Source: Bdellovibrio sp. GT3
GTDB lineage: Bacteria; Bdellovibrionota; Bdellovibrionia; Bdellovibrionales; Bdellovibrionaceae
DNA: 64,000 nt
NCBI RefSeq assembly: GCF_037996765.1
Contig: NZ_JBBNAD010000006.1
Location: forward strand, 62,001 to 126,000
Direction of reading: 5' to 3'
Both the position numbers and the translations under genes were made by a program. Positions 15,854 through 41,258 of the stretch are shown here, in pieces. Every line of letters starts with the position of its first letter. The first letter of the stretch is position 1. Under the pieces are notes generated by a model that saw only the letters and a program-made list of their open reading frames with translations, was not told where the DNA came from and ran no database searches.

Positions 15854-18361
15854 TTGAACCATCAAAGTACGTTTCATAAGCAGTTGTTGCGCTCGCAACA
15901 GGGCTCCGTTCTACTTATGGCGATCATAAGTGGCGTGATCGTATGTATCATGTTCTTCGCCTCCATTGCCTATATTGAAACTCAAGCAAAAATGATGGCT
16001 CGCTCGGCGAACAAGACAGATCGCCGCATCGTGATGGATGGTTTGTATGCCTACACCGTCAATGCTGTGAAACAAAGCTGGTGCTTGTCCTCGACTTGGG
16101 TTGAGGAACTGAACTGCACCATGAATCACCCACGCAACACTCAACGACTTTTGCTATCGGACGAAACACTTCTATTCATCCGCAACTCTGGCACTCCACA
16201 TCCGGAACCACTGTCTTCAACACGTTTGAAATCGATTTCGACAACTGTTCAATTGAGCAATTTCACAGAGTCGCATCCTCTCTATTCTGTCGTAAGACCA
16301 CTTAAGGAAGAATACTCCCAAGCCACCTTTACAATCGAGCGTGATGCAACGGCGATCTCTGCCGTTCGTGGTAAGGAAGTTCCGTTGAAAGTCACGATCT
16401 TCCTGAAACACAAATCTGAAAGACAGTATGATGAAACACTGGTTTCAAAAAACATCGTCTATCCACGCGAGCTCAGCTACTTCTCGTTGATTTTAGCAAA
16501 TGATTTATATCTGAATACAAAAGCCAGCAGCGCAAGCAGCGGCAATAATCGCATCAATTCCGCACCTATTGGATCAAGCCCCGGTTTAAGATTCGAAAGC
16601 CCGGTTTTCGTCAACGGTGATATGCATCTGCCAGCCTCTGGACTTCGCCCTGCCATGAAAAACGTGACCTTCGTGGATAAGGTGGTATTGGGCGGCGGGA
16701 AAATCATGCAGGACAATCAGCCTTTCATGGTTAAAACTGCCGGTGGTGAAGGCTCCATGTTTAACTATGAGCTGCCGAACTTTGCGGGACTTCTGGGTGG
16801 ATATGAACTGGATCCAGGTCGCGATACAGGTTTGGATTTCCTTTATAACATCGCTCCCGGCGACACAAACAGCTTCAATTCACAGGTTCTGTGTCGCGCC
16901 CGCTTGATGGCTTCCTACGATCTTTTGATCACGAACCCTTCACAGCTTTGGGCTCGCGCCAACTCAGCTTCGGCGAATCGCGCGCAATTAAGCTTCAATG
17001 TCGGCAACGTGGATAACTTTGTCGAGCAAGCCACTATCAATGGATACGAAGCAATCACGACAGTGCCAAACGTAGCTACGGCTGCTATGTCAAACGCCTC
17101 GACAACGGCGGGAACTCCGATCATGAAAGCCCGCGTGTACTACAACGGTCTTCAAGCACCGGGAGGTGCGCGTGGTGCCTATATCACTGACTTCTACGTA
17201 CACCGTGAAGGCACGGTAACGCTGTACCCAACGGGAACAGCGGGTTCTTCGATCACCATCAGAACCGCTCCTTTGGTGGTTTCGGGACGCACTCAGTTCA
17301 ATCAAGTCGATATGACTGTTGAGTTTAACGGCTCCTTGGACATAGCTCCTTATAAAACCAATGGAAGTGTTTTGTTCAACTCATCCCCTTCTGTGAAGTT
17401 TGTATTTGAGGCCTACGATTACGGTTATCTAAATGGAACCAATCTGCGACCTCCCGGTGGTACGCCATACTTCAAAAACAAAACCAACGGTGTGACTTTC
17501 ACACGTTCTGGCGCCGATATGGTTCTGGTGGCCAACACCAACAATCTGGGTGTGAACTTTAACAAATGGCAGACGAATTCAGGCCTTGAAGCCTCGGCGA
17601 ACTACTCTTTCCCAATTACTTCAGAATACATTGGTTTGCATGTACCAAAAGACACTCCGGAAAATCTGGCAGAATTCGATGACCGCTGTTTTGCAACGCC
17701 GGAACCAGGAAATTCCAATGCGGATTTTTCAGCCTTCCCTGCTGCAACTTGGGACACATCATTCGCCCGCCAGGCGCGCAATGCGTGGATGTTCAATGCG
17801 GACTGGTCGACCCGAACAACGCCAGGATACTATGAAGGTGTCTGGACATACGGCACCAGCTCGACATTTACAACACACTCGCTGGTCAGAGAATGCCGCA
17901 TTGATCCTGATGCAACACTTATTGCGGGAATGTTTGCGTGTGAAACATTCCGAATTATGGCGCGCTCAAAACCACTGCGTATCATTGGAACTGTGATCAC
18001 CAATCAGTTGATTATTGATCCTTCGGCATTCAATGCCGGCATCCGTTGGAGCAGCATCTACCACCCGCAGGCAACGCAGGAGCTTATTAATGCCGGCATT
18101 TTGGGTCGGGATAAAGCAGGTGCCTTGATGAGTTGCGCACCTGGGACACTGGCACCGCTATGGCAGGCCAACATTGGTATTTCTGACCGTTACGCGCACT
18201 GGGTGTGCAACCCTGTGAGCCTGCGTAAAGCAGATCCATTCAAGTGGACCACGGTTGATCCAGACTGCGGTATCGTAAATGCCCGTGATACTTTGGTTAA
18301 ATGCAAAAAACAATCGAAGCGCTTCCTAATCAAGGAAGTCAGCCGCGGAAAGGGGTTGTAG
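15854..18361 (+). CDS. Large prepilin-like protein (PilX/GspK-like N-terminus)
   Basis: An 835-aa protein with a prepilin-like start: a short basic leader ending SQQG (Gly17) followed by the hydrophobic SVLLMAIISGVIVCIMFFA. Position +5 after the putative cleavage site is not Glu, as in tip-located PilX/GspK proteins. The rest is a large beta-rich exported domain with few cysteines. The start is TTG at 15854, supported by AAAGGGG upstream. It is the first gene of an operon with two further prepilin-like proteins, so it is probably a minor (tip) pilin that carries a surface or adhesive domain. The start and pilin class are moderately certain; the ligand is unknown. Confidence 0.7.
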   Translation: MNHQSTFHKQLLRSQQGSVLLMAIISGVIVCIMFFASIAYIETQAKMMARSANKTDRRIVMDGLYAYTVNAVKQSWCLSSTWVEELNCTMNHPRNTQRLLLSDETLLFIRNSGTPHPEPLSSTRLKSISTTVQLSNFTESHPLYSVVRPLKEEYSQATFTIERDATAISAVRGKEVPLKVTIFLKHKSERQYDETLVSKNIVYPRELSYFSLILANDLYLNTKASSASSGNNRINSAPIGSSPGLRFESPVFVNGDMHLPASGLRPAMKNVTFVDKVVLGGGKIMQDNQPFMVKTAGGEGSMFNYELPNFAGLLGGYELDPGRDTGLDFLYNIAPGDTNSFNSQVLCRARLMASYDLLITNPSQLWARANSASANRAQLSFNVGNVDNFVEQATINGYEAITTVPNVATAAMSNASTTAGTPIMKARVYYNGLQAPGGARGAYITDFYVHREGTVTLYPTGTAGSSITIRTAPLVVSGRTQFNQVDMTVEFNGSLDIAPYKTNGSVLFNSSPSVKFVFEAYDYGYLNGTNLRPPGGTPYFKNKTNGVTFTRSGADMVLVANTNNLGVNFNKWQTNSGLEASANYSFPITSEYIGLHVPKDTPENLAEFDDRCFATPEPGNSNADFSAFPAATWDTSFARQARNAWMFNADWSTRTTPGYYEGVWTYGTSSTFTTHSLVRECRIDPDATLIAGMFACETFRIMARSKPLRIIGTVITNQLIIDPSAFNAGIRWSSIYHPQATQELINAGILGRDKAGALMSCAPGTLAPLWQANIGISDRYAHWVCNPVSLRKADPFKWTTVDPDCGIVNARDTLVKCKKQSKRFLIKEVSRGKGL

Positions 18362-18362
18362 G

Positions 18363-18836
18363 ATGAAACTGAACAACAACCGCGGTTTTTCAATGATTGA
18401 ACTTTTGGCAGCTATCGTGGTGGGCGTGATCGTCAGCTATGCCACTTATTCCTACATCACTTATATTTCCAATCTTTCGGCGCAAATGCGACTTACTCGC
18501 GCCTCGAACGACAACGTTCAGGCTATTGTGGAAAGCATTCGTTTCAATCTGTCCCTGTATCAGGTGTCTTTTGAAACCAACATGGCTAAAGAGGAAGCTC
18601 TTTTGAAAAGGGATGTTTTGCCCTTTGGGCTTTCCTACGGGACCATGATCCCGAAATCAGAATGCTTCAAAAAGGATCCTTGCCAGGCCTATTTTGGCTA
18701 CGTCATCGTACCAAGTTTATTTGTTAGAAATTTATATCAGGTCGACCTGAGGGTCGCCCTGCCCGCAGATAAAAGAGTCATTGGTAAGCAGGAGGAACGG
18801 TGGAAACAATACACCTACTTCATCACAGTGAAGTAA
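18363..18836 (+). CDS. Prepilin-type minor pilin-like protein
   Basis: 157 aa with a canonical type IV prepilin N-terminus: MKLNNNRG, cleavage after Gly8, then FSMIELLAAIVVGVIVSYA with Glu at +5. A prepilin peptidase would process it in the inner membrane and it would join a pilus or pseudopilus. Two cysteines (SECFKKDPC) could form a small loop. Its ATG begins two bases after the previous stop, and its 3' end overlaps the next gene by 37 bp. Confidence 0.8.
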   Translation: MKLNNNRGFSMIELLAAIVVGVIVSYATYSYITYISNLSAQMRLTRASNDNVQAIVESIRFNLSLYQVSFETNMAKEEALLKRDVLPFGLSYGTMIPKSECFKKDPCQAYFGYVIVPSLFVRNLYQVDLRVALPADKRVIGKQEERWKQYTYFITVK

Positions 18837-19849
18837 AAAGTAAAAATCCCCTGCAAAATGCAAAGGGCATGACCATCACGGAACTCCTGGTGGTTTTGGC
18901 ACTTGTGGGCGTGGTCGCCTTGGGCAATGCCACGTTCCTGTTTGATTTCACCAATCAATTAAAACGCATTAACTCCGCATCTGAAGGCGACACCGAGTTG
19001 TCTGTTTTGAATATTGCCACAGTGAATATTCTGAAAAAATCAGCGGCCAGCTTCAATAAAGTTGATTTACGCGACGATAATAATCGCAACTTCTTTGACT
19101 ATTATCCTGACGTTCCCTACTCCACTATCGAGGATCAGGCGAAGAATTCTGCGCAAAGATCTTTCACTATGACGCCGGGTCAGGCCAACCGCTATTTCTA
19201 TTTGCTTCAGTCGGAAGAGGCTGAATTTGACTCGGTCATTTTCGATCCGATGTTCGCCTACCGACAATCCTCAGTACCAGCCAACCAACTGCTGAACGGA
19301 ACAGTTCAATATGTGGGATTGAATTCCATCCCGGATTTAAAGGGCACAACGGGTTCATCTCCGAATGGCTCCATGACTCAGATTTTTCAAACGCGCTGGG
19401 CCCCAGGAAAGCTATTTATGTTAAGCTGCCCTACTTATTTGCGCCCCATTGTCGGTGGTTCGATCAGCATCATGACTGCTCCCCGTTTTGCTTCTTACCT
19501 TGGAAAAGTAAGCGGCAGTGACCTTGGACTGCTGTCAAATGCAGAGTCCAAAGTGAACATCATTAATTCTCACCCAATCACCCTGGCCAACTATACAAAC
19601 GTTGATGGATTCATGCGCACACTGCCCGCTGTGGGTGGAGCTGCACCTTTTGTCAAAATTGAACCTGTGACTATGGTACGATTTGAATTACGTGTAAACT
19701 CGGTGACAAACAAGTCGGAGCTATGGCTTCAGGAACTGACAAATGGTCAATATAAAGACGTCAATATGCTGTTATCCGGCGTAAGCGAAGTTAAATTTGT
19801 AAGAAAAGCGATCACCCTCCCTATTATCAGTCTTGAGGTGAAACGATGA
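18800..19849 (+). CDS. Prepilin-type minor pilin-like protein
   Basis: 349 aa with leader ending NAKG (Gly23) and mature start MTITELLVVLALVGVVALG, with Glu at +5. The GTG at 18800 is chosen because GGAGGA lies 4-8 nt upstream, although this places the start inside the previous gene. The C-terminal domain is large and unrecognised, as in GspJ-like or PilW-like minor pilins. The stop overlaps the next ATG (ATGA). Confidence 0.75.
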   Translation: METIHLLHHSEVKSKNPLQNAKGMTITELLVVLALVGVVALGNATFLFDFTNQLKRINSASEGDTELSVLNIATVNILKKSAASFNKVDLRDDNNRNFFDYYPDVPYSTIEDQAKNSAQRSFTMTPGQANRYFYLLQSEEAEFDSVIFDPMFAYRQSSVPANQLLNGTVQYVGLNSIPDLKGTTGSSPNGSMTQIFQTRWAPGKLFMLSCPTYLRPIVGGSISIMTAPRFASYLGKVSGSDLGLLSNAESKVNIINSHPITLANYTNVDGFMRTLPAVGGAAPFVKIEPVTMVRFELRVNSVTNKSELWLQELTNGQYKDVNMLLSGVSEVKFVRKAITLPIISLEVKR

Positions 19850-21057
19850 AAAATATGAACTTGAAACTTATCATCGCCGCCAGTTTAGTGGTTCCGCTTT
19901 CCTTGCAAGCGCAAACCAAGAAGTCCTCAACGACCAGCGTTCTGCCTTTTACCGGGCCTAATATGAACGACGTCGTTCTGGATTCACAGCTTGTGATGAA
20001 CGGGTCAAACTCGGACGTAACCACTTTGGATATTTACGTCAGCTGTTTTGGTACAAATCTTCGTGCCGTTCCAAATCCAATTTCTGAGCAATCAGATATC
20101 ACGGCGACCTTGTATTATCTAACGGCTGCCGGTGGTAAAAGAAAACTCGATATCACTTTCCCGGCAACTGCAACCATGCGGACCTCCGCCAGTACCGATG
20201 TGGATTTAACCAATGCGACTGTCCTGGACAACAATACCAGCACGCGCTTGCGTGCACGCTTAAAGGGAAATTTAATCCGCATTAACCTGGAAGGTGCCAA
20301 AACCATCCCTGTGGATGTCCTGGCAACAGGTACTAATTTCACTAAATTGGATGCACTGGATGTCAAATCGGACTTCCTCAGCGGCATCACCTTTGCGCAA
20401 AAAGTTACCAACAGCAATAGCGAGCGCCGCTACATGGCTTTTGATGGCCCCATTACCGCCGCCAGCAACTGGTATGCTTCTGAAAACGGAAAATCCCTGA
20501 CCATGCTGGCAGCCTTTCCGGGTGAAACCTCTTTCTGTGGTGGTTACTTCTCCCCGTTGGTTTTAAAATTTGATGATGAACTGCCGAAGGTTGAAAAGAC
20601 CTCCAAGTTTCCTCTTATAGCCAACCAAAACGGAAGAAAGATCTCCTGGCCGACATTTGATGACGAGATGTACTTCCTGGTCCATGATCAAAATGGAAAC
20701 AAAAAAGTCGACGGTGGTCACGAACTCTTTGGCGACATTAACAACTTCCAGGACGGCTTCAAAAACCTTGAAGTCTATGACTTCAATAAAGATGGCTTGA
20801 TTGACTCCAAAGATCCGGTCTTCGCAAAACTGCGACTTTGGAAAGACAGCAATCACGATGGTAAAAGCTCCGCCAAAGAGCTTAAAACCCTCAAACAACT
20901 GGGTGTTGAGTCGATTTCCGTGAAATATACGGATGCGACCCAGGATCTGGGCCCTAACGCGCGACTTGTAGGACCGGGCGAGTTCACCTACAAGGATAAA
21001 AAGGGCGAAGAAAAGAAAGGGCGCGTCTGGGATATTTTTCTTAAAATTGTTCCTTAA
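19846..21057 (+). CDS. Secreted EF-hand/dockerin-like calcium-binding protein
   Basis: 403 aa with a signal peptide (MKNMNLKLIIAASLVVPLSLQA). The N-terminal 250 residues are a beta-rich domain of unknown family. The C-terminal part has calcium-loop motifs: DQNGNKKVDGGHE from residue 281, DFNKDGLIDSKD from 312 and DSNHDGKSSAKE from 334, the last two fitting the 12-residue EF loop. It overlaps the upstream prepilin gene by 4 bp, so it belongs to the same assembly. Calcium-dependent binding at a pilus tip is plausible but inferred. Confidence 0.7.
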   Translation: MKNMNLKLIIAASLVVPLSLQAQTKKSSTTSVLPFTGPNMNDVVLDSQLVMNGSNSDVTTLDIYVSCFGTNLRAVPNPISEQSDITATLYYLTAAGGKRKLDITFPATATMRTSASTDVDLTNATVLDNNTSTRLRARLKGNLIRINLEGAKTIPVDVLATGTNFTKLDALDVKSDFLSGITFAQKVTNSNSERRYMAFDGPITAASNWYASENGKSLTMLAAFPGETSFCGGYFSPLVLKFDDELPKVEKTSKFPLIANQNGRKISWPTFDDEMYFLVHDQNGNKKVDGGHELFGDINNFQDGFKNLEVYDFNKDGLIDSKDPVFAKLRLWKDSNHDGKSSAKELKTLKQLGVESISVKYTDATQDLGPNARLVGPGEFTYKDKKGEEKKGRVWDIFLKIVP

Positions 21058-21088
21058 TTGAGATAGCATTTTTTTTTGGGAGGATTCC

Positions 21089-21916
21089 ATGAAAAGGCAA
21101 ACTCAACTGAAATTAGCAACTGGCGTTTTGCTCTTGTTTACGATCGCAGTCATTTCCGAAACCGGGTTTTCAAGACCTGGCAGCAATGGCAACCGCTGGG
21201 AGTACCGCTTTAAGAAGGACTCTCCGACGGATAAGAGCCCTAGAACGGATAACAGAGGAAGCGTCAGCGCCCCCGTCAACTTGGGAAGCGATGGAACCCC
21301 TTGCCGTGATGCCTTCATCATGATGAGCACCATCTTTGATGATGCCTCAGTGGGAGCTGCAAAATCCCGCCTGGCGGTACCGCCGTTGGCTCATGGCGAA
21401 ACCAAAAACTTTAATTGCACAGAACCACAGCCAGCCATGTCCAATAAAAATGAACAAAAAGTTATTGGCGGGACTTTGACGGTTCAGTGTATCAATGGGG
21501 TGGCAACTTTAGCAGCGGCAAGCTGCGATCTTTCCGCACCACCTCCACCGCCGCCTGTACCAACACCCACACCAACCCCTACTCCGGGCGACTGCACGAA
21601 CTGTAACACGCTCGTTGCCACCAACTCTACTGAGGTTCAAATCAGTAAAAACGCAACGGGCACCCGTGTGACTTCCAAAGTTTATCGTTGTGACGGGCGT
21701 GCCTACTTGACGGTGTACGTAAGTTCCAACAAATCTGTTTGTACTCCGCCAGCATCGCAACCTGGATGCGGAAGCACTTGTGACGCCATCGGTGTTACGA
21801 CTACAAGCTCATACCAAATCTCCAAGAATGCCACGGGTACCAGAACTTCCACGAGCTACCAATGCGACAACGGCAAGGTACTGGTTAAAGGCTCCACTGG
21901 AACATATTGCCGCTAA
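21089..21916 (+). CDS. Secreted repeat protein with proline-threonine linker
   Basis: 275 aa with an N-terminal hydrophobic signal (about residues 8-27). An N-terminal cysteine-containing domain is joined by a PPPPPPVPTPTPTPTPG linker to two homologous modules of about 50 residues, each with a CxxC-like start, the shared motif ISKNATGTR and a terminal cysteine. A good SD (GGGAGGA) precedes the ATG. It closes the pilin-like operon, ending at a strong terminator. No family recognised; a surface-exposed or pilus-associated role is inferred. Confidence 0.6.
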   Translation: MKRQTQLKLATGVLLLFTIAVISETGFSRPGSNGNRWEYRFKKDSPTDKSPRTDNRGSVSAPVNLGSDGTPCRDAFIMMSTIFDDASVGAAKSRLAVPPLAHGETKNFNCTEPQPAMSNKNEQKVIGGTLTVQCINGVATLAAASCDLSAPPPPPPVPTPTPTPTPGDCTNCNTLVATNSTEVQISKNATGTRVTSKVYRCDGRAYLTVYVSSNKSVCTPPASQPGCGSTCDAIGVTTTSSYQISKNATGTRTSTSYQCDNGKVLVKGSTGTYCR

Positions 21917-21929
21917 AATTCACAAACAG

Positions 21930-21957
21930 GGCGCCCCCGAGTGGGCGCCTTCTTTTT
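21930..21957 (+). terminator. Intrinsic terminator of pilin-like operon
   Basis: A perfect 7-bp stem GGCGCCC/GGGCGCC with a 6-nt loop is followed by TTCTTTTT. The start codon of the next gene lies only 12 bases further on. Confidence 0.85.
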
Positions 21958-21968
21958 ACGGATGAAGA

Positions 21969-24143
21969 ATGATTTTACTGCTGGCCCTGTTCTCGGGCCT
22001 TTTAAATCTTTCAGCACAAGTTCTATACCAAAAAGTCGTGTCGGTGACTTTGGGGGATCTTTACACCACGTTCATTCTGGTGACGCTGCTATTCATCTGC
22101 GGCTCGGCGCTTGGTAATTTATTTTCTTCAAAACTGCGCAAACACCTGCCCCTGCTGGAAGTTTTAACCGGCATTTACAATTTACTTCTGTTTTTTAAAA
22201 CTCCACCCGACACTTTGCTGATTGCAAGTCTGCTTATTCCCGCCTTCTGCCTTGGGGCACAGCTACCTTTGTACAGCTATTACTTGCGCCAAATTCGCTA
22301 TCGTTGGATTTACTCTCTATACCACTTGGGTGCAATTGCAGGTCTTTTAGCCTTTGAAATTTACTTCACTCACGGTTTGTCCATTCGGACAGCGCTGGCA
22401 GCACTGGGCTTAGCCCAGATCTCACTGGGAATTGCTTTGTACCTCCTGGCTCAAAAAGAACGTTTCCATCTGACTTCAAATCCGCAATTTCATCTGAAGA
22501 AATTCTTTGCACCCAGGCATCGCCTCAGCATCTTCGCCGTGGTGGCGATCTCAACACTTAGCTATTATCAAATATTCTGGGCCGTAAAAACCCAGACTTT
22601 CTTAACTGAAGCCTTCCGTCTGCAGGCCACACTGATCACCATGGCTGTCTTTTTTTGGATGAGTTTTGCTGGTGCCGTTGAAAAATGGGCAAAGACGGTC
22701 CCTCGTGCGGTATTATTCATCGCTTGGGCCTGTGTTCTGTTGATCATTCAGCTATTCTTTCCGAGTTTGCCCGTATGGTTGCGGGACTTGATGAATGGAT
22801 CTCTTGCAAATTATTTCGCACTTAGTTTTGTGCAGGCCCTATTCCTTACCGTGCCAGTCTTGTTTTCCAGTCTGATGTTCATTCGCGGCGCTGAAGAAAT
22901 TTCCGAGGACATGGCGATAGATGAGTCTTCAAGCTTATTGAATATCCTTGCCAGCGCTGGCAACACGGTGGGGATGCTGGCAGCCGTATTGATGTCTTCG
23001 CAGCTTTGGTTCAATTCTTATTTTGCCACGGCTATTGTTATTGCCAGTGCCTGCGCGCTGGTTTTTGCGCATTTTGAAAATCGCTATTTTAAAACTGCAA
23101 CTGCCTTGGCCGGCGTGGCCATTCTGGCCTTTTTCGCTTTTAAAAATAGCCAGGCGGATTCTTTGCTTGGCAATCGCTTGTCCAAAGAAATCCGCGCGCA
23201 ATCAATTCCAAGCACCACGACGATACACTCCGAAGCGTTTTCGTCCATCGCCATCCATAATACATACTCAAACGTCCCACCCCATGAACCGGTGCGCATG
23301 TACTACATCGACGGCCATGCATCTCATGACTTGAATTTATTCACTGAAAACCTGGTGGGATTGATTGCAGCTCCCTATTTCCCAGGAGCAATCGATAAAT
23401 CCCTGGTTATCGGCGTGGGTTCCGGACAAACCTCCTGGGGTGTCGCGGCCATCAGCGCAAACACCGATCTGGTCGAAATATCACCCGCCGTTCGCAAAAC
23501 CTTGAACCTATTCTCTTTTGAAAACAACCAACTGGCAACTCGCCCTGGGATTCAGCTTCACCTGCAAGATGGAATGAATTTCTTAAAAGCCTGTCCGACT
23601 GGAACCTACGACCTGATCGTCAACACCTCCACCTATCCGGGGAACTTTAACGCCGGGAAACTGTTTACGGACGAGTTTTTGTCTTTGGCAAAATCATGCC
23701 TGAAAACACAGGGCGTCTATCAGACTTACTTTGATATCGCCTCGGTCATTGATATTAAACAACGAAACGAATTCCTGGCTCCGCTGCAAAAGCACTTTAA
23801 GTATATTGATATTGTGAAAATACCCTATCCAATCGTGATAGCCTACAATACTCCCCGTGCACTTAGAAAAACCAGAATCTCTGATTTACTTAAAAATGAA
23901 GACCTTAAGTTTTATCAGAATACTCTTGTTAACAAGGAATCCTTCAAAGACCCCTGCTTCACGGTCTATCGAGATATTCCCACGACCAACGATGTCCGCA
24001 TGAACACTTTGGATGAGAGTATTTTGGAAGCCAATTCCATCAGCAATATGGTGCAGGCCTTGAACCCACATTTTTTAGGTGAGCACCTTCAAGACACCAC
24101 CTCTGACTTGAAATCCTCCGGCTGCTGGCAACCTGAGCCCTAG
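21969..24143 (+). CDS. Membrane protein with aminopropyltransferase-like domain (1 of 3)
   Basis: 724 aa. The N-terminal 400 residues are mostly membrane helices of the kind fused to spermidine-synthase-like domains (first helix from residue 2, GNLFSSKLRKHLPLLE between early helices). The C-terminal 250 residues have a Rossmann nucleotide site VIGVGSGQTSWG near residue 480, an acidic DLVEISPAV, LQDGMNFL, and then YDLIVNTSTYPG followed by KLFTDEFL. In true spermidine synthases the last motif has a catalytic Asp where this protein has Asn552. It may therefore not make polyamines. It is convergent with the second member, overlapping by 4 bp. Confidence 0.75.
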   Translation: MILLLALFSGLLNLSAQVLYQKVVSVTLGDLYTTFILVTLLFICGSALGNLFSSKLRKHLPLLEVLTGIYNLLLFFKTPPDTLLIASLLIPAFCLGAQLPLYSYYLRQIRYRWIYSLYHLGAIAGLLAFEIYFTHGLSIRTALAALGLAQISLGIALYLLAQKERFHLTSNPQFHLKKFFAPRHRLSIFAVVAISTLSYYQIFWAVKTQTFLTEAFRLQATLITMAVFFWMSFAGAVEKWAKTVPRAVLFIAWACVLLIIQLFFPSLPVWLRDLMNGSLANYFALSFVQALFLTVPVLFSSLMFIRGAEEISEDMAIDESSSLLNILASAGNTVGMLAAVLMSSQLWFNSYFATAIVIASACALVFAHFENRYFKTATALAGVAILAFFAFKNSQADSLLGNRLSKEIRAQSIPSTTTIHSEAFSSIAIHNTYSNVPPHEPVRMYYIDGHASHDLNLFTENLVGLIAAPYFPGAIDKSLVIGVGSGQTSWGVAAISANTDLVEISPAVRKTLNLFSFENNQLATRPGIQLHLQDGMNFLKACPTGTYDLIVNTSTYPGNFNAGKLFTDEFLSLAKSCLKTQGVYQTYFDIASVIDIKQRNEFLAPLQKHFKYIDIVKIPYPIVIAYNTPRALRKTRISDLLKNEDLKFYQNTLVNKESFKDPCFTVYRDIPTTNDVRMNTLDESILEANSISNMVQALNPHFLGEHLQDTTSDLKSSGCWQPEP

Positions 24144-26398
24144 TAGTCCCTTGGATAATTAAGAAACAAATCCGTCGCGGATGTTCGGCTTTTCTCAATC
24201 AACAGATTATCATCCGTGACTATGGCATCATTCACACCGACCTCACGGCGGATGTACTCGATCCAACTATTTGCCACTTTCTCTGCAATATCGAAATCAT
24301 TGGGTGTATTCAATCCATCCTGATCCCAGGAACGGCTTGGCATCAGCTTTTCTGCCCGATCCCAACGAGCCGCATCCCACGATGTAAATGGCTCCATTTT
24401 ACCCAGGAAGATAATTCCATCATAATCGTAACCCGGCAAAATCTTGTAGTACGGAAAACTCTGCTTAGCCGTATTGATCAAGGCTTGAATGGAGTGCTGG
24501 GACCCAAACAACAACTGTGCATAGACTCCGCCCGGCGCCAGATTCTGAGTCACGATTTTGTAAAACTCTGCTGACATCAAATGCGTTGTGCCGACTCCAT
24601 AGGGATCCACATTCACAGTCAGCACATCCCACTTTTTGCCAGAAAGTGCGACATAACTACGACCGTCGGCGGCGATATTTATCACTCTTGGATCTTTCAG
24701 ATAGTCGTTGTTTTTAAAAGTCATTTCACTTTGCGCCCGCAAAACCAACGGCAGCAATTCAACACTGGTGATATTTTGTTGCACTGGAAGCTGTACAAAG
24801 GCTTCCGTGGTAAGTCCGTACCCCATCCCCACGACCAGGACATTATTCAGATCCTTGGCAAAAAGGGCCGGATACAAAGCCAGATTCTTTTGCACCACTT
24901 TTGTTTTATCAAAACCATATGGCGCCACCAATGAGCTGAAATTATTGAACATCGCCCAGCGAGTTAAATCTGGCTGAGCGGGATAGGGCTTCAGTTGAAC
25001 CAGGGATAAATACCCGAACTCATCTTCGGCTTCAAACAACACTGTCTCGGCGGAATTAAGACTGAGCGGCTTCAATATAACGAAGCCCAAAAGTACGAGC
25101 CCAAAAATCACAGTCAATCCGCGCCGCGCGCCTTGAGTAAATTGAACCGCACCGAAAAGGGCCAAAATCAAAAGTGCCGCGCACAAAAACTTCAAACTGT
25201 TCACGGTGCCAAGATATCTGAACAGAACATAAGTAGCTAACAGACTCCCCAATACCGAGGCGAAGGTGTTTACATAAATTGCCCGGGACAAACTTTTCGT
25301 GCGCGCCAAGGCAGAAACCTCCCCAGCCTGAATCAAACGCAGCGACAAAGGGAAACACAAACCTAAAATCACACCCGGCACGATGGCCAAAACCAACAAT
25401 GCCGCCGCAAAAACAAAATGCAAACTCTTGTGGTACGGACTTACCAAATCAACTGCCAAACCCATGGTGTGATTAAAAAATAAAAAGCCCACACACACTG
25501 AAAATACCGCGAGCAATAATAAATTGATCAATCGGGAAACCTGACTCCGCACCGGCAAATCTTTCCAACGTGGACTTAACGCTGCACCAAGAAACAGCGA
25601 CAATAAAAGCACCGCCAAAACCAGACTGTGCACGTAGACACGCCCACCTAACAGCAATGAGGCCAGGCGAAACCACAACTGTTCCAGACTTAGAACGAAA
25701 AAACCACTGAGTCCGCTTAAACAAACCGCCCAGATTTTAATGGTTTTTGCAGACAATCCCTCCGCTGCCATTTGATGGCTGGGAGTATTTGCTGTCTTCT
25801 CGGATGAGAAATTCTGAAATTTATGTCGAAAGAAAATCACACCTGCCAGAAAGTTCAAGCCAATCCCTAGAGCCAGGGTCTTGCCAAGCCCCGCATAGTA
25901 AATCAAAACCGTATAAGACAATAAGGCCCCCACGGCCCCGCCAAGACAGTTCACGGCATAAAGCCATTGGTGCTGACTGGCTTCCGAAAACTTGTAACTG
26001 ATCACCGGGAACGACAACCCCATTAAAAAGGTGGCCGGGAAAATAAAGATCCCCGTCAGTAAAAAATGGGAGATCAAACTTGGACCGGAAAAGTCCCGCA
26101 ACCAATGCGTGATTGACTCTGTGTTTCCAGTGAGAATCGCAAAACTGGCGCAAACAACCACGACAATCGCAAATTCACAATAGGAATAAAGGGGAATCTC
26201 TTTTCGAAATGATCGTCGAAGCAACTTGGGCGCCCATGCCGTCCCGAGCCCAAGTCCCAGCATGAAATGCGCAATCACGCAGGAAATAGACAATGTGGTT
26301 CCGCCCAACAAAGTTGAAAAAACGCGGATCCAAAGAATTTGATAAAGCAAACCAGAAAATCCCGTCAAAAACATTGCTGTGATACCCTGACTGAACAT
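24140..26398 (-). CDS. Membrane protein with aminopropyltransferase-like domain (2 of 3)
   Basis: I choose ATG 26398 (752 aa) because GGTGGAGG lies 8 nt upstream and the product then begins MFSQGITAMFLTGFSGLLYQ at its first helix; the frame stays open further upstream to 26536 but that would overlap the divergent gene. About 500 residues of membrane helices precede a spermidine-synthase-like domain: VLVVGMGYGLTTEAF, SVELLPLVL, AADGRSYV and WDVLTVNVDPYGVG, where Asn again replaces the usual catalytic Asp. The family is widespread as fused transporter/spermidine-synthase-like proteins, mostly without proven function. Confidence 0.75.
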   Translation of the reverse strand: MFSQGITAMFLTGFSGLLYQILWIRVFSTLLGGTTLSISCVIAHFMLGLGLGTAWAPKLLRRSFRKEIPLYSYCEFAIVVVVCASFAILTGNTESITHWLRDFSGPSLISHFLLTGIFIFPATFLMGLSFPVISYKFSEASQHQWLYAVNCLGGAVGALLSYTVLIYYAGLGKTLALGIGLNFLAGVIFFRHKFQNFSSEKTANTPSHQMAAEGLSAKTIKIWAVCLSGLSGFFVLSLEQLWFRLASLLLGGRVYVHSLVLAVLLLSLFLGAALSPRWKDLPVRSQVSRLINLLLLAVFSVCVGFLFFNHTMGLAVDLVSPYHKSLHFVFAAALLVLAIVPGVILGLCFPLSLRLIQAGEVSALARTKSLSRAIYVNTFASVLGSLLATYVLFRYLGTVNSLKFLCAALLILALFGAVQFTQGARRGLTVIFGLVLLGFVILKPLSLNSAETVLFEAEDEFGYLSLVQLKPYPAQPDLTRWAMFNNFSSLVAPYGFDKTKVVQKNLALYPALFAKDLNNVLVVGMGYGLTTEAFVQLPVQQNITSVELLPLVLRAQSEMTFKNNDYLKDPRVINIAADGRSYVALSGKKWDVLTVNVDPYGVGTTHLMSAEFYKIVTQNLAPGGVYAQLLFGSQHSIQALINTAKQSFPYYKILPGYDYDGIIFLGKMEPFTSWDAARWDRAEKLMPSRSWDQDGLNTPNDFDIAEKVANSWIEYIRREVGVNDAIVTDDNLLIEKSRTSATDLFLNYPRDY

Positions 26399-26422
26399 TC
26401 CTGATGCCTCCACCTTAGATGC

Positions 26423-26451
26423 TTGTAAAGATGCTACCAATCGTCTAGCCT
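26423..26451 (+). promoter_or_regulatory. Possible promoter giving a leaderless transcript
   Basis: TTGTAA, a 17-base spacer and TAGCCT lie so that transcription would begin one or two bases before the ATG at 26460, which lacks an SD. The -10 match is weak, so this is tentative. Confidence 0.25.
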
Positions 26452-26459
26452 TAAAACCA

Positions 26460-26939
26460 ATGGAATTTTTCAATAAAAAATCTGAACTAATTCTTTTGAT
26501 GACTCTGGCCGTGATATTTGTGGTCAGCTTCTTCACACGCCCACTATTTCCTGTTCAGCGGTATCCCCTGTTTGCGGATGCTCCGACGACGTATGAAACT
26601 TATCATGCAAGCCTGCCCACAGGAGAACAGATCCCCTTGCTCAGTTTGCAATTGCAAAACAACTATGACGGCGATCCCACTTACGACGTCGGGCGCCACC
26701 CAGCCACGGTCTACGCTTGGGGTGAAATCCTAACCACAGAGCAGTTACAGAATCACTTCTCCACCCTGTCCAAACAAAATCAGATTCCTAAAGAGTTTTG
26801 TCTTATCAGAACCATTTGGGGGCAGCGCAGTGATCAGAATTTTGGAGTCATTAAATACTCCCTATTTTGGTGGTCCAATGAACATCTCGCAGAAAACAGC
26901 GATTCAGCACCACCGGTCTGTAGAGGAACGGTTATATGA
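26460..26939 (+). CDS. Membrane-anchored protein, unknown
   Basis: 159 aa with one N-terminal membrane segment (LILLMTLAVIFVVSFFT at about 10-26) and a soluble extracytoplasmic part beginning RPLFPVQRYPLFADAP. No family recognised. No SD precedes the ATG, so translation may be leaderless. It diverges from the 752-aa gene with a 61-bp gap and overlaps the HTTM-like gene by 4 bp (ATGA), so it belongs to the same unit as the HTTM-like protein and the third aminopropyltransferase-like protein. Confidence 0.6.
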   Translation: MEFFNKKSELILLMTLAVIFVVSFFTRPLFPVQRYPLFADAPTTYETYHASLPTGEQIPLLSLQLQNNYDGDPTYDVGRHPATVYAWGEILTTEQLQNHFSTLSKQNQIPKEFCLIRTIWGQRSDQNFGVIKYSLFWWSNEHLAENSDSAPPVCRGTVI

Positions 26940-27715
26940 TTTGGCCAACGTCTATTCGTTACTTTGATGGCTTTCGCCGCTTGGTCTTACTGTGTTCCAT
27001 TTTTCTAGGCTTGGATCAGTTATTTATCCCTTGGCGAACGGCAGGTGCTATCCTGCCAGTTTCGGTGATCGGCTATTTACCGGAAGCGTTTATTGAAAAC
27101 AAAATGGCATTTCAAATTTGCACGGGCATTTTTCTGGTCAGTGCGACCCTATGGTTGCTCAAATTGGTTCCGCGGTTGTCTTCAATTGTTTCATCGTTGT
27201 TTTTCATACTCAGCACCTCCTGGTATTTACAGAATGAACCCTTCGGCGATCACCGCCAATCGGTGTTTTCTCTTTTACTAATCTTATTAACCCTGCGTGA
27301 ATGGGGTTTACTACAGCGATATTTTTATCAGGCAGCGGCTGTCGTGGTGCTGTCATTTTATTGCCTGGCCGGCTGGGAAAAGATTTTTTATTCAGGCCTT
27401 TCATGGCCCAACGGCACCACTCTGCAAATTTTTGTACACGCCATGGGCTACATGGAATCTTATTTGGGAAAAGTCATTCTTCAAAACCACAGCTTGGCCG
27501 TATTTCTTCAATGGGCAATACTTATTATGGAATGCGGAGCCTTCCTTATCCTGACCGGACCGCGCCTGCTTAGATGGATTTGGCTAATTGCTCTGTTGGG
27601 GTTTCATATCGGCATCGAGGAAGTCTTCCATTACCGCTACTACCTGCATTTCATGATAGTTATTTACTTGTTCGCACTACCGGGTCTTTTGGAGAAAAAA
27701 CATGTTCAGTCTTGA
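26936..27715 (+). CDS. HTTM (vitamin K-dependent gamma-carboxylase-like) membrane protein
   Basis: 259 aa with about seven membrane helices. The stretch YCLAGWEKIFYSGLSWPNG is the 'K...sG..W..G' signature of HTTM proteins, and GFHIGIEEVFHYRYYLHFM matches the later His-containing helix. HTTM proteins share the transmembrane fold of vertebrate gamma-glutamyl carboxylase, though most bacterial members have no known reaction. It is coupled upstream (4-bp overlap) and overlaps the next gene by 14 bp. Confidence 0.65.
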   Translation: MIWPTSIRYFDGFRRLVLLCSIFLGLDQLFIPWRTAGAILPVSVIGYLPEAFIENKMAFQICTGIFLVSATLWLLKLVPRLSSIVSSLFFILSTSWYLQNEPFGDHRQSVFSLLLILLTLREWGLLQRYFYQAAAVVVLSFYCLAGWEKIFYSGLSWPNGTTLQIFVHAMGYMESYLGKVILQNHSLAVFLQWAILIMECGAFLILTGPRLLRWIWLIALLGFHIGIEEVFHYRYYLHFMIVIYLFALPGLLEKKHVQS

Positions 27716-30044
27716 TAGGTTCAAAACGAATTCTGAAAAGATTTTTCTCCTCTGGTTCGGAATTCCTGTGCTGCTGTACCAGGTTCTTATTTCCAGAATT
27801 TTATCGCAAATTTTCGGCAGTCTTTTTTTCATTCAACTTTTCCTGATCGCAGTGGCCTACCTGGGCACCTCCCTGGGCAGCTATTTTGCGGATCGCTGGA
27901 AGTTCACTCTTTCCAACAGTCACCTCTCGCTGGTGATACTTAACGTCGCCCTGCTGGGGTTCTATTTAAACGACACAACCTTATTGGCTGCCACCCATCT
28001 AAGTTTGATTCTGGGCTTTGTCCTGTTTTTTCTGATCAGCTTTGTTTCGGCCATGATTCTTCCGTTGTATTTCTTAAGAACCGGCACCGAAACTGGATCC
28101 TCCACCAAACGCTTCAATCAGGTTTATTTTTATTTCCATCTGTTGGTGGTCGGGGCCTTGATATGGACGGAGTTGGATTTACTTTCTTCCGTCGGCATCA
28201 CGCAAATCCTGATTGGCCTGACGCTGCTTGAAGCCTTCTGGAGTATTTACTGGTGGTTTCGCGACAAAGACCGCATCCAACCAATCAGCCGCTCTGCAAA
28301 TGAAATGCTGTTCTCGACTTCAGCAAAAAAGCTACTCCTGTCCCTTTTTGTGTTTTCGGTGATCAGCGGCGTGATTCAGTCGATTCTTTATCGACAAGTG
28401 CAAACCACACTGGCGCCCCTGGCCTTTCACTACACTTTGTATTTGGCGGCATTGCTGCTGAGCTGGGCCGCCTCCAGTTTGTGGTTTCAAACGCGCAAAG
28501 GCTATCAATGGCTGAGCTGGACAGATTTCAAAAGCAAATCGGCGATATTGATTTTTGCACTTTTGGTTTGGACTCAAGCTTGGCCCGTGGCTTGGGCCTG
28601 GATGTTGGATGTTTGTGGATTAAGCACCTTTGATGGAGCTGCACTTCACTCCTCTGTGACACCTGAAAACACCCCGTACATCATCTTTATGATTCGCGCC
28701 GTATTCACCCTGGGGCTGATCTTTCCATTTGGTTTCTTTTTCGGAAGCCTATTGCCACTGGTGAAAAAAGAAAATGAATACATCCCCTTGGGAATTTATC
28801 TAAGCATCAATTCTTTGGGAAATGCCTTGGGCATTCTGGTTTTCATTTCGATACTTTTTGAAGTGTTGGGGATTTTTCAACTCTGGGCTTTACTGGGGCT
28901 GTGCTGCCTGATTTTCGCAGTTCGCACCATCAAACTCCGCATCATCACCAGTTCGCTGATTGTGATCATGGGCGGCTTATCTTGGGGGCTGTTAAGAACA
29001 TATTCCTGGGATTTGGGCAGCTTTAATATGCGTGGTTTTGCGCAGTGGTATTCCTATTCTCAGGAAATCAGCAAAGTTCAGACCTTCAAACACAACAGCA
29101 GCCAGGTTAACTTTGTAGAGTTCGCTGGACAGTACTCACTAATGTTCATGAACGGTCACACGTCGGTCTTCCTTCCGCACCAGGAACCGATCCCCTTGAT
29201 TGATACTTTGATGGGCCTGACGCCTTTGGCTTACGTGAATAATTTTAATAATGCCCTGGTGATCGGCATGGGCACGGGCGCGACGGCTTTGGGAGCGGAA
29301 CAGCTTTTTGCTCATACCGACATCGTGGACCTGGATCCGACGATGTTAAAAGTTGCCGGCAGCCTTAAGTTTGTCGCCGATAAGTTATTGCATAATCCCA
29401 AAGTGACTTTCACCGAAGCCGACGGATTGACTTATCTAAGGACGACGAAAAAGAAGTACGACCTTATTTACAACAACGTGCCTTCACCGGTTTATTTTGC
29501 TGCAGCGAAACTATGGACGCGTGAAGCTTTACAGGCCGTTTCATCAGCCCTTCATGACGACGGAATTTTTGCCCAGTGGCTGGATGGGGAAATATCACCC
29601 TTGGCCTTGGACAGTTTGATTCGTTCCTCAGAGGATCTGTTTTCCCAATGTGATTTGTATTTGCTGAATATCGAGTTTTATTCACTGGTTTGCTCCAAAG
29701 GTGCTGCACCCCTGAAGTTTAAAACCTACCCCGACAGCTTGGCGAGCCTGATGCAAACCACACCGCTGACATTCAATGCCTTTCTACAGGCTTTACAGTT
29801 CCCAAAGGTGCCCATGAAGGCCGTCGATCCTGACGTCCCTTTGAACACCCTGGACAAACCCCTTATGGATGTACTGGTTGCGCAAAACCCACCGGGCTGG
29901 CTGCACAACGCCCGCAAAGACTCCGTGGCCGCCCGCTTTAAGATCGGCGAAGCCCTCACTCCAGAGAAGTGTTCCCGCATCCGGGGTTGGCTGTTCAATC
30001 GGCACTTTGTTGAAGCTCCAGGCGATTGCGCAGAGCTTTTCTGA
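27702..30044 (+). CDS. Membrane protein with aminopropyltransferase-like domain (3 of 3)
   Basis: 780 aa. About 450 N-terminal residues form many membrane helices. The C-terminal domain has LVIGMGTGATALGAE, DIVDLDPTM, TEADGLTYL and YDLIYNNVPSPVY, the last with Asn591-Asn592 where spermidine synthases have the catalytic Asp. Sequence differs clearly from the other two members, so this is not a recent duplication. It starts within the HTTM-like gene. kdsA follows 35 bp after its stop on the same strand. Confidence 0.75.
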   Translation: MFSLDRFKTNSEKIFLLWFGIPVLLYQVLISRILSQIFGSLFFIQLFLIAVAYLGTSLGSYFADRWKFTLSNSHLSLVILNVALLGFYLNDTTLLAATHLSLILGFVLFFLISFVSAMILPLYFLRTGTETGSSTKRFNQVYFYFHLLVVGALIWTELDLLSSVGITQILIGLTLLEAFWSIYWWFRDKDRIQPISRSANEMLFSTSAKKLLLSLFVFSVISGVIQSILYRQVQTTLAPLAFHYTLYLAALLLSWAASSLWFQTRKGYQWLSWTDFKSKSAILIFALLVWTQAWPVAWAWMLDVCGLSTFDGAALHSSVTPENTPYIIFMIRAVFTLGLIFPFGFFFGSLLPLVKKENEYIPLGIYLSINSLGNALGILVFISILFEVLGIFQLWALLGLCCLIFAVRTIKLRIITSSLIVIMGGLSWGLLRTYSWDLGSFNMRGFAQWYSYSQEISKVQTFKHNSSQVNFVEFAGQYSLMFMNGHTSVFLPHQEPIPLIDTLMGLTPLAYVNNFNNALVIGMGTGATALGAEQLFAHTDIVDLDPTMLKVAGSLKFVADKLLHNPKVTFTEADGLTYLRTTKKKYDLIYNNVPSPVYFAAAKLWTREALQAVSSALHDDGIFAQWLDGEISPLALDSLIRSSEDLFSQCDLYLLNIEFYSLVCSKGAAPLKFKTYPDSLASLMQTTPLTFNAFLQALQFPKVPMKAVDPDVPLNTLDKPLMDVLVAQNPPGWLHNARKDSVAARFKIGEALTPEKCSRIRGWLFNRHFVEAPGDCAELF

Positions 30045-30069: not shown

Positions 30070-30933
<864 letters not shown>

Positions 30934-31043: not shown

Positions 31044-31964
31044 TTGAAACTTCTAAATGCCTTTTTACTGGCTGTTGCTTTCATCACTGTGGGTTGCAGC
31101 GCTTCTGTTGAACCCACACTAGTATCAAATAAGTCTGCTACGCCTATTATTGGCGGCCAGTTGGTTAAAGAGGACTCTGCGCTGGCCCACAGTGTGGTAG
31201 GAATCTACGACAACAACTTCGGCTTCACATGCACGGGTTCGCTTTTGCCAGGAAATCTGGTTTTGACTGCAGCTCACTGCATCGGCGAAAAAACTTCGGA
31301 GGTCTATGTAGTTTTCCATCCGAACATGGAATCCATCCTGAATCTTGGTAAAAATTTCAGAACTCACCCAGCTGTTCGCCGCGTGGTTAAAATGAAAGCT
31401 CACGAAGATTTCGCTGGCAGCCAAGACAACATGGCAATCCCAGGACACGACATCGGTTTGATGATGTACGAAGGCGAAACTCCAAAGGACTATACTCCAG
31501 CAAAAATCCTGACTGAACCCGCAGCACTAAAAAGAGACGCTTTGACGATTCTTGCTGGTTACGGTGTGAACTATGCTGAGGTGATTCCAGTCAACCCGCG
31601 CAAAGAAAAAAATCTTCAACAGATGATCAATAATGGCGAAGTTTACTGCGACAACGACGATGCACGTAAAGCCACAAGCTGTGTTCGTGAAGAGATCAGC
31701 GGCCCTGCAATTCTTAAAGCTGTGCAGGTAAAAATCAAGTACACGCCCAATGAAGGTGAAGTTGTTTTGGACCAAACTGGCGGTCAAGCGGCTTGCTCCG
31801 GAGACTCTGGTGGTCCGGCTTACATCCAGGTTGGTAACGAATACCAGCTTTGGGGTGTCACCAGCCGCAGCGGCTTGGGTTGCAACACCGATATCATTTA
31901 CATGAACATTCTGTACTATGCAGTTTGGATCACAGACACCGCAAAATCTTTCGGTGCTAAATAG
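31044..31964 (+). CDS. Trypsin-like serine protease, lipoprotein
   Basis: 306 aa, family S1. The start is TTG with GAGGA 8 nt upstream. The signal peptide ends in a lipobox-like TVGC (Cys18), so the protein is probably lipidated. IIGGQL marks the activation-type N-terminus of the catalytic domain. The triad is visible: His78 (TAAHC), Asp136 (HDIGLM) and Ser255 (GDSGGP). Paired cysteines typical of the fold are present. A paralog of the same layout lies at 41259-42185. Target proteins are unknown; in a predator it could digest prey protein, which is speculation. Confidence 0.92.
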   Translation: MKLLNAFLLAVAFITVGCSASVEPTLVSNKSATPIIGGQLVKEDSALAHSVVGIYDNNFGFTCTGSLLPGNLVLTAAHCIGEKTSEVYVVFHPNMESILNLGKNFRTHPAVRRVVKMKAHEDFAGSQDNMAIPGHDIGLMMYEGETPKDYTPAKILTEPAALKRDALTILAGYGVNYAEVIPVNPRKEKNLQQMINNGEVYCDNDDARKATSCVREEISGPAILKAVQVKIKYTPNEGEVVLDQTGGQAACSGDSGGPAYIQVGNEYQLWGVTSRSGLGCNTDIIYMNILYYAVWITDTAKSFGAK

Positions 31965-34962: not shown

Positions 34963-37900
34963 CTAGAGCTGCGGGTTCACATTTGCCTTTGGCAACCAGG
35001 AGTACATTACCGATAACAGATAAACTTCATCGACCGGTTTTGTCACATAGTCAGATGCCCCGGCAGCCAGGCACTTTTCGCGATCCCCTTTCATCGCTTT
35101 CGCGGTCAAAGAGATAATCGGCAATTTCTGAAATTGCTCGATTTTGCGAATCTCGTGGATAGCCTCAATCCCATCCATTTCCGGCATCATGGTATCCATA
35201 AGCACCAGATCGGTGTCAGGATTTTCATTTAATGTTTTAATACCCTGCTTGCCATTCTCCGCAAAAACCACGTTCATGCCGCGCATTTTTAGAACGCTGC
35301 TTAGAGCAAAAACATTCCGTACGTCATCATCGACAATCAATATCTTTCGACCGGTAAATTCGGCATCAATCGGTAGCGGCAACACTTCAGAGTTTTCATC
35401 ACGCACATTGACCGTTACCCCCTCAGGAGCTGAGTACTTTACTGGCAGAATCAAATTGAAACTGCTGCCCTGACCTGGCATGCTTTCCACATTGATCACA
35501 CCACCTAAAAGGCGTGCAATCTCCCGACTGATCGTCAGGCCCAGACCAGTACCGCCGTATTTGCGACTGGTTGTTCCGTCCGCCTGCTGGAAGGCTTCAA
35601 ATATCAACTTCTGCTTATCCGCTGGAATCCCGATACCCGTATCCTGTACCCGATAAACAATCGCTCCACCCGGGTAATTTCCGGCGGCATCATAACTGAC
35701 ATCCAGATTCACATGCCCCTTGTCCGTAAACTTGAAGGCATTGGACAAAAGATTCTTCAATATTTGGTGCAGTCGATTTTCGTCCGTGACCATGGCTTTC
35801 GGTAAGTCTGGTGAAGCCGTTATCAAAAATTCAAGTCCCTTGTGTTCGGCAACTGGACGGAATGTCTGCTCCAGATATTCCTGAACTTCCTTGATCTCGA
35901 CAGCTTTCGGTGTGACTGGCATTTTTCCAGCTTCCACTTTGGAAAGATCCAGAATTTCGTTGATCAAGGCCAACAGATCCTGCCCCGCAGAGTGAACCGT
36001 GCTGGCAAATTTCACCTGCTCACCGCTTAGATTTTTCTCGCGGTTATCAGCCAGGGTTTTTGAAAGAATCAATAAACTGTTCAACGGAGTTCTCAGCTCA
36101 TGCGACATGTTTGCAAGAAATTCGGATTTGTATTTGGAAATCAACGACAACTGTTCTGCTTTTTCCTCCAAGGAACGGCTGGCAAGCTCCACTTCCTGAT
36201 TTTTCACTTCCAGAAGTTTTGCTTTGTCTTCCAGTTCTTTCGCCTGGGCTTCCAGTTCGACATTCGAACGTTTCAGCTCCTGCAAAAGCTCCTCAGTTCT
36301 CATACTTGACGAGATCATGTTCAGGATCACACCCACGGAGTCCATCAATTGATCCAGGAAGTTGATATAGTTCTGTGTGAACGGAGTTAAGGAAGCCAAC
36401 TCGATCACAGCTTTAAGTTCACCTTCGAACAACACCGGCAATACGATAATATTGCGCGGTTTTTCTTCGACGATGCTTGAGCTGATCATGGCATAGTCGC
36501 CCTGTGGATTGGTCAGAAGAATTCTTTTCTTCTCGAATGCACATTGACCAACAAGGCCTTCTTTTAATTTATATTTATTGGATACTGAACGACGCTCAGA
36601 GAAAGCATAACTTGCAATCAGATTCAAAGAGCTTTCAGCCCCTTCTGCTTCAAGCATGAAGAAGGTCCCCTGACGGGCATCTACCAGCGGTGTCAGCTCT
36701 GACATGATGAGCTGGGCCACCGATGCAATACTGCGCTGACCTTGCATCATTCCCGAGAATTTTGCGAGATTCGTTTTCAACCAGTCCTGCTCGTTATTCT
36801 TTTGAGTCGTGTCTTTCAGATTGCTGATCATCTGATTGATATTTTCGGACAATGCCGCAACTTCGCCTTCGGCCTCAACCGAGATGGATCGGGTCAAGTC
36901 ACCCTTCGTTACCGCCGTCGATACTTCGGCGATGGCACGAACCTGTGCGGTTAAGTTTCCCGCGAGCTGATTCACGTTGTCTGTTAAGTCCTTCCAGGTA
37001 CCAGAGGCACCCGGTACGCTTGCCTGACCGCCCAGCTTTCCTTCGATACCCACCTCGCGGGCAACGGTTGTTACCTGATCCGCGAAAGTTCTTAATGTAT
37101 CAGTCATTGAATTGATGGTTTCGGCAAGTGCGGCAACTTCCCCTTTGGCTTCCAGAACGAATTTTTGTTCCAAATCCCCATCGGCAACAGCGGTTACGAC
37201 CTTTACGATACCCCGTACTTGGGTCGTCAGATTCGAGGCCATGAAGTTTACGTTATCTGTTAAGTCTTTCCAGGTTCCGGCAACACCCGGCACGCGCGCC
37301 TGAGCTCCCAGTTTACCTTCGATACCCACCTCGCGGGCAACGGTTGTTACCTGATCCGCGAAAGTTCTTAATGTATCAGTCATCGAGTTGATGGTTTCCG
37401 CAAGTGCGGCAACTTCCCCTTTGGCTTCAAGGACGAATTTTTGATTCAAATCCCCGTTGGCAACGGCGGTTACGACCTTGACGATACCACGTACCTGTTT
37501 CGTCAGGTTCGAGGCCATGAAGTTTACGTTATCCGTTAAGTCTTTCCACGTACCGGACACTCCGCGCACTTCCGCCTGACCTCCCAGTTTCCCTTCCGTA
37601 CCCACCTCTTTCGCCACACGAGTTACCTCGGCCGCGAATGAGTTTAGCTGATCCACCATCGAGTTGATGGTGTTCTTAACTTCCAGGATTTCCCCACGGG
37701 CATCAACGGTGATCTTTTGTGACAAGTCGCCATTGGCAACCGCGGTGGTAACTTTTGCGATGTTACGTACCTGTGCTGTTAGATTTCCGGCAAGACCATT
37801 TACGTTATCTGTTAAGTCTTTCCAAGTACCAGAAACCCCTTTTACTTCGGCCTGACCACCTAGCTTACCCTCGGTTCCCACCTCTTTCGCCACACGAGTT

Positions 37901-41087: not shown

Positions 41088-41258
41088 ACGCATCCCCCAC
41101 GCTCAATGATTCCCCCAACCTCTGGTTATCACAAGTTCTTTTCATCGATCTGTCCAAACTCTGGTCAGATCCACCTGGGAATTAGAAATAATTATGCGGG
41201 GCTGGAAATGGCGGCAAATCACGTTAGAATACACTCTCGCAAAGGAATGTTTTTACTC

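Follow-up and report, generated by a model that had tools for sequence, protein, structure and literature searches.

The locus analyzed here raises the question of what three large membrane proteins with spermidine-synthase-like C-terminal domains (P0001, P0002, and P0005) may do beside a cluster of minor pilins in a predatory bacterium. It lies in what we call the window, that is, the whole 64,000-nucleotide stretch of DNA that was analyzed (G000:C6:62001-126000, from a Bdellovibrio-like genome of 3.58 Mb). In order, the locus comprises a five-gene cluster for minor-pilin-like and exported proteins (15854–21916, plus strand), P0001 (724 aa; 21969–24143, plus strand), P0002 (752 aa, a fused MFS/SpdSyn-type membrane protein; 24140–26398, minus strand), P0003 (159 aa; 26460–26939), P0004 (259 aa; 26936–27715), and P0005 (780 aa; 27702–30044), the last three on the plus strand, and finally a gene of the DAHP-synthase family that starts at 30079, adjoins the P0005 end of the locus, and was read as KdsA-like (KDO8P-synthase-like). 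The open reading frame positions in the first-pass annotation were borne out, and the overlaps that it described between P0003 and P0004 (26936–26939) and between P0004 and P0005 (27702–27715) are real. The listed GTG start of P0002 (26536) is probably wrong: it overlaps the divergent P0003 and has no ortholog support, whereas the ortholog alignment supports a start at 26398. P0001, P0002, and P0005 together with their respective orthologs are referred to below as families A, B, and C.

All three proteins match the Pfam model PF01564 above its cut-off in their C-terminal part (e values of 4.5e-8, 4.1e-10, and 3e-11 for P0001, P0002, and P0005, respectively), in agreement with the spermidine-synthase-like domains initially proposed. 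Profiles of the ortholog sets were then aligned to solved spermidine synthases, and no Asp aligned at the catalytic position; the column is occupied by T553 in P0001, N596 in P0002 (counting from the start at 26398), and N592 in P0005. The initial claim that Asn replaces the catalytic Asp in all three proteins is therefore right in that Asp is absent throughout and that P0002 and P0005 have Asn, but P0001 has Thr; its N552 lies one residue before the column, and T553 is in the column by both HMM and MAFFT alignments, an assignment that a gap could shift between the two residues. The second Asp is retained in P0002 (D598). The acid of the GxG(D/E)G motif, which binds decarboxylated SAM, is replaced by S485 in P0001, Y527 in P0002, and T525 in P0005, and the ribose-binding acid after beta-2 is retained (E503 in P0001 and D543 in P0005). 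A YHE-type motif, corresponding to the substrate Tyr/Gln of the N-terminal hairpin, was not visible in families A, B, and C in an alignment that is gappy in that stretch. The active-site strings are invariant among orthologs (NT-x-TYP in P0001, NVDPYG in P0002, and NNVPSPVYF in P0005), which argues against decay. Judged from these alignments, P0001, P0002, and P0005 are not standard synthases, and their genes are not in decay.

Given their SpeE fold and family membership, the three proteins might be true aminopropyltransferases with unusual substrates such as branched or protein-bound polyamines. We regard this as very improbable because the two acids in contact with the aminopropyl group and the attacking amine have been substituted in each of the three proteins and in every ortholog, because the domains are predicted to be periplasmic (discussed later), and because polyamine synthesis is covered by a separate SpeD-SpeE fusion. 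The latter combines AdoMet_dc and Spermine_synth within one frame of 433 aa (L001:886-2184, in the G000:C5:289538 region) with an intact site (GGGDGG...VDGSDP). We therefore rejected a polyamine role, as the first-pass annotation had done, and are highly confident that P0001, P0002, and P0005 are not aminopropyltransferases. Frames similar in length to the fusion occur in many congeners. The genome also encodes another membrane SpdSyn-like protein (L002, in the G000:C5:660162 region), which retains GAGDG and FLDFPYP, follows another membrane protein of this type, and has a predicted C-out topology that is ambiguous.

The missing Asp had been presented as the surprising feature of the locus. 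To place it in context, 143 genomes of the class were searched with NF037959, the model for "fused MFS/spermidine synthase" proteins, and the hits were read at the motif level. In most of the large membrane SpdSyn-like proteins sampled, the acid of GxG(D/E)G is missing (LGTG, YGTG, FGGG, and similar motifs take its place), and the catalytic column holds D, E, or Q, several proteins having E or Q. Comparable losses are thus frequent among relatives, and we rejected the missing Asp as the main surprise; on this motif-level reading, the acid loss is a property that holds for a wider superfamily. What sets P0002, P0005, and their orthologs apart among the proteins sampled is Asn at the catalytic column. 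P0002 matches NF037959 (51.8 bits; cut-off 40), and P0001 and P0005 gave no match to it at e values up to 1. Like NF037959 proteins, the three proteins combine an N-terminal MFS-type membrane domain with a C-terminal SpeE-fold domain, and they share the predicted 13-helix C-out arrangement of most relatives in the class; they differ in that P0001 and P0005 escape the model, in the Asn column of P0002 and P0005, and in their linkage to pilin and HTTM genes. Within what was searched, the three families are restricted to Bdellovibrionaceae, and a scan of 84,980 species genomes with two narrow peptide patterns for P0001 relatives outside Bdellovibrio matched only two Bdellovibrio MAGs. A literature search on NF037959 found no experimental paper.

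An AF2 model of P0001 (pLDDT 79, pTM 0.83, 8 sequences) shows a complete 12-helix MFS transporter in residues 1–374 (VIA Z 22.4 to SLC37A4 over 341 residues), a 13th helix (TM13, 373–390), and a SpeE fold in residues ∼395–715 that superposes on spermidine synthases (1inl/1jq3, 3o4f, and 1iy9) with VIA Z ∼20. Unlike SpeE itself, the proteins of the window lack both acids of aminopropyl transfer, are fused to a membrane domain, and are predicted to have this domain in the periplasm. P0002 and P0005 have 13 helices each by hydropathy, as do most orthologs of the three families. MFS proteins have both termini in the cytoplasm, so one extra helix would place the SpeE-fold domain outside. The distribution of K/R residues, which are concentrated on the N-terminal side (17 versus 5, 20 versus 6, and 22 versus 3, C-flank included), agrees with this for all three families. 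The soluble domain contains four invariant Cys in P0001 and in every other member of family A (one further pair being present in G012), none in family B, and four invariant Cys in family C; such even numbers suggest disulfide-bonded periplasmic domains. Class-wide relatives (L125–L154 and L051–L053) are mostly C-out with 13 helices or a parity-equivalent number, exceptions being L140, L144, L131, and L142, and most class-wide "fused MFS/spermidine synthase" proteins have 0, 2, or 4 soluble-domain Cys. From hydropathy and the one structure model, we consider it likely that the SpeE-fold domains of all three proteins are periplasmic. The folds themselves are known; the predicted topology conflicts with the family name "spermidine synthase," and the linkage to pilin and HTTM genes is unreported.

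A periplasmic SpeE-fold domain stripped of its aminopropyltransferase acids could belong to a pseudoenzyme that binds a ligand or partner and, without any group transfer, serves as a gate for the MFS transporter or as a chaperone. The loss of all these acids, the completeness of the MFS domain in the P0001 model, and the difficulty of naming a general base with confidence would all fit. The new invariant strings, with clusters of Asn, Thr, Tyr, and Pro beside the nucleotide pocket, are however what is expected of a re-tooled active site, and methyl transfer is compatible with a missing GxG(D/E)G acid, as a fungal protein demonstrates. NHMT, an ER-resident SpdSyn-like protein with seven transmembrane helices, methylates the N-terminal His of secreted LPMOs although it lacks the GxG(D/E)G acid, and its SAM-binding acid is conserved; how much SAM reaches the ER is named by its authors as a limit (PMC10349129). 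We therefore consider the pseudoenzyme explanation unlikely. The proteins of the window resemble NHMT in having a polytopic anchor and a SpdSyn-like domain, a non-acidic GxG(D/E)G residue with the ribose/SAM acid kept, a soluble domain that is extracytoplasmic by prediction, and, as we propose, exported targets. This likeness is one of features: NHMT has 7 rather than 13 helices, no MFS domain has been reported for it, and it belongs to the eukaryotic ER. No conserved mature N-terminal His was noticed in P0006, the exported protein encoded immediately upstream of P0001.

The HTTM identity of P0004 suggested in the first-pass annotation was confirmed by structure. Its AF2 model (pLDDT 87) gave human GGCX as all of its top 15 Foldseek matches (probability 1.0), with VIA Z 14.8 over 234 residues. 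P0004 itself matched neither the Pfam HTTM model nor PDB sequence profiles, and its ortholog in L047 reaches PF05090 with an e value of 1.6e-5 and 25.1 bits, under the cut-off of 27.7. P0004 superposes on the membrane domain of GGCX and has an invariant Lys in its AG-x-EK motif (K149), which we take to be a possible equivalent of GGCX Lys218; in contrast to GGCX, with which it shares 16–18% identity, it lacks the large lumenal domain, and it would at most be a putative carboxylase. P0003, its small partner encoded 5' of the HTTM gene, has a single N-terminal transmembrane helix followed by an extracytoplasmic domain and matched no family at e values up to 5. Small membrane-anchored proteins resembling P0003 also precede HTTM genes in L117, L119, and L121–L124. 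In G119, which belongs to another family of the order, a small anchored protein, an HTTM protein, and an acid-less membrane SpdSyn-like protein are encoded together up to the contig end (L119:67-3680); the set thus recurs outside Bdellovibrionaceae. With the exception of G119, the weak HTTM matches in a search of 144 genomes of the class are mostly unrelated to SpdSyn genes. In G064, an HTTM pair is closely followed by two prepilin-like genes (GFSLMELM and GFGLIEVM; L124:8230-13332), a second case of proximity between HTTM and pilin genes.

In Bacillus subtilis, SdpAB is a pair of a small membrane protein and an HTTM protein that matures a secreted peptide. By this parallel, P0003 and P0004 would mature a secreted peptide to which the SpeE-fold proteins add a further modification. 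The recurrence of the gene pair, the HTTM fold of P0004, and a partner in G022 that is weakly DUF5819-like speak for this explanation, which we nevertheless consider quite improbable: neither an SdpA nor an SdpC match was found, and no candidate small precursor was identified beside P0003 and P0004. A literature search returned nothing on HTTM together with spermidine synthase, nor on the HTTM family via SdpA/SdpB.

It had further been proposed that the three proteins and the HTTM protein form one dedicated membrane modification system. Related genomes do conserve the neighborhood, but in a patchy manner. The whole block is collinear in four congeners (G010, G011, G021, and G022), P0001, P0002, and P0005 being 47–58% and the KdsA-like neighbor 90–94% identical; since wider synteny is also shared there, this collinearity is weak functional evidence. 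The five closest genomes share the wider synteny, and only G035, G016, and G012 are independent of it. In G035, which represents another genus, the pilin cluster with P0001 (L048) and P0002–P0005 (L047) are each intact and ∼890 kb apart, and in G016 the pilin cluster adjoins P0001 in swapped order and P0002–P0005 are absent. A single three-enzyme system was therefore rejected in favor of two separable modules, the first consisting of the five-gene pilin cluster and P0001 and the second of P0002–P0005. No genome was found to have the second module without the first. A role in membrane-associated modification as such is plausible, supported by the predicted periplasmic domains and by the pilin linkage. 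Further along the window, an 1,831-aa hybrid histidine kinase (34963–40458, minus strand) carries about a dozen near-identical repeats ahead of its kinase part, and two trypsin-like exported proteases that are ∼40% alike (31044–31964 and 41106–42185, plus strand) flank the kinase genes; this protease pair is conserved in the collinear congeners.

The pilin cluster of the first module, all on the plus strand, begins with P0008, a large minor-pilin-like protein of 835 aa (15854–18361) with a leader that is class III-like by eye (..QQG/SVLLMAIISG). It is followed by a prepilin of 157 aa (RG/FSMIELL; 18363–18836) that matches PF07963 (N_methyl) with 26.3 bits, above the cut-off of 21.2, by a prepilin-like protein of 349 aa (KG/MTITELL; 18800–19849) that scores 19.5 bits, slightly under the same cut-off, and by P0007, a secreted protein of 403 aa (19846–21057) whose D-x-[DN]-x-[DN]-G repeats resemble EF hands, give weak EF-hand matches, and are kept in six orthologs. 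The last gene encodes P0006, an exported, Cys-containing protein of 275 aa (21089–21916) with an NRW[EH]xR motif that is conserved after the signal/anchor and with orthologs in L044, L045, L046, L048, and L050. Of 80 genomes, exactly 7 encode close relatives of P0008 (49–61% identity over the full length), and each of the seven also has P0001, which is present in eight of the 80; the hypergeometric p value of this co-occurrence is 2.5e-9, and 5e-5 within the genus, both uncorrected for relatedness. Paralogous pilin clusters, two in this genome and others in relatives, comprise four pilin genes and lack both P0006 and P0001, so that these two genes distinguish the cluster from its paralogs. The two in this genome lie in tandem ∼8 kb left of the window (L093:2493-14279, G000:C6), with large pilins of 1,017 and 1,026 aa. 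The start and stop of P0001 and P0006 overlap in G011, G021, and G022. In the strain analyzed here, a terminator-like hairpin of nine pairs, seven of them G-C (21928–21951, plus strand), lies between the two genes and argues against a single transcript; a promoter scan gave no excess over shuffled sequences. G012 has, without this pilin cluster, a P0001-like gene that precedes genes for a small protein and an HTTM-like protein, which counts against the explanation that we favor. Divergent from that P0001-like gene is one for a 1,290-aa exported protein with thrombospondin-like CGGGTQTRT repeats (L049:12877-16749). On balance, P0001 is probably linked in function to the pilin cluster.

A comparable arrangement has been described in another predator. 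Myxococcus has interchangeable minor-pilin tips that determine which prey is killed, and its Kil "Tip" clusters share with those analyzed here the presence of several paralogous minor-pilin clusters per predator genome and of large modular pilins; the leaders found here are, in contrast, type IVa-like, and no modification enzyme is reported for the Kil tips in the portions of that article drawn on here (PMC12075869). Our literature search found no paper tying spermidine-synthase-like proteins to pili.

The surroundings of the locus also allow for a modification, outside the cytoplasm, of surface glycans or lipids (O-antigen or capsule) rather than of pilus proteins, in which case the pilin linkage of P0001 would be incidental. 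A distant family B relative in G056 (L053, 24% identity) is encoded in a cluster of sugar genes whose products, named from their sequences, include a nucleotide-sugar epimerase, a DegT-type aminotransferase, and a PIG-L-type deacetylase; the locus itself adjoins the KDO8P-synthase-like gene. This fits P0002 and P0005 better than P0001, which stays with the pilin cluster through the rearrangements in G035 and G016; moreover, the modules contain no glycan genes, and in other congeners the KdsA-like gene is not accompanied by the locus. We therefore judge a glycan or lipid target to be somewhat unlikely. Insertion of a cassette at a fixed kdsA site was tested in G005, G006, G012, and G019; the KdsA-like gene has different neighbors in each of them, so that no empty site could be read.

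The explanation that we favor, to which we assign a probability of roughly 0.4, is that P0001, P0002, and P0005 belong to the "fused MFS/spermidine synthase" superfamily as lineage-specific members, are not aminopropyltransferases, and serve as enzymes that mature secreted components of the pilus tip or the surface outside the cytoplasm, probably in a SAM-dependent manner. In the model of P0001, helices 1–12 form the MFS transporter; helix 13 would carry the chain across the membrane, and the SpeE-fold domain would be left in the periplasm, where its conserved Cys could form disulfides. By analogy with NHMT, the MFS part might bring a donor nucleotide, in the simplest case SAM, out of the cytoplasm, and the periplasmic domain, with its ribose acid kept and the acids for decarboxylated SAM lost, might pass on a group (in the simplest case methyl) to exported proteins or to components of the surface. 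Methyl transfer by the SpeE-fold domains is a tentative assignment at somewhat less than even odds, and donor supply by the MFS part is speculation; to our knowledge, no SAM pool is known in the bacterial periplasm, which counts against the proposal. P0001 would serve the accompanying minor-pilin cluster, with P0006 or the pilins as substrates, and P0006 is the first candidate since it and P0001 set this cluster apart. P0002 and P0005, together with the P0003/P0004 pair, would form a second maturation module that may co-operate with the first. In its boldest form, which we consider doubtful, the proposal is that SAM, or a donor related to it, is exported by the MFS half and used by the attached periplasmic half to methylate exported pilus-tip proteins, perhaps as a general property of "fused MFS/spermidine synthase" proteins, and that the HTTM pair adds a second, carboxylase-like chemistry.

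If the SpeE-fold domain is periplasmic and not an aminopropyltransferase, the "fused MFS/spermidine synthase" annotation, borne by many bacterial membrane proteins, would be wrong for a whole family, and a type of SAM-dependent modification that takes place after export would have been overlooked in bacteria. The tie between P0001 and the minor pilins in a predator provides a specific and testable set of substrates and, if the proposal is true, the surface tips with which Bdellovibrio meets its prey may be chemically modified.
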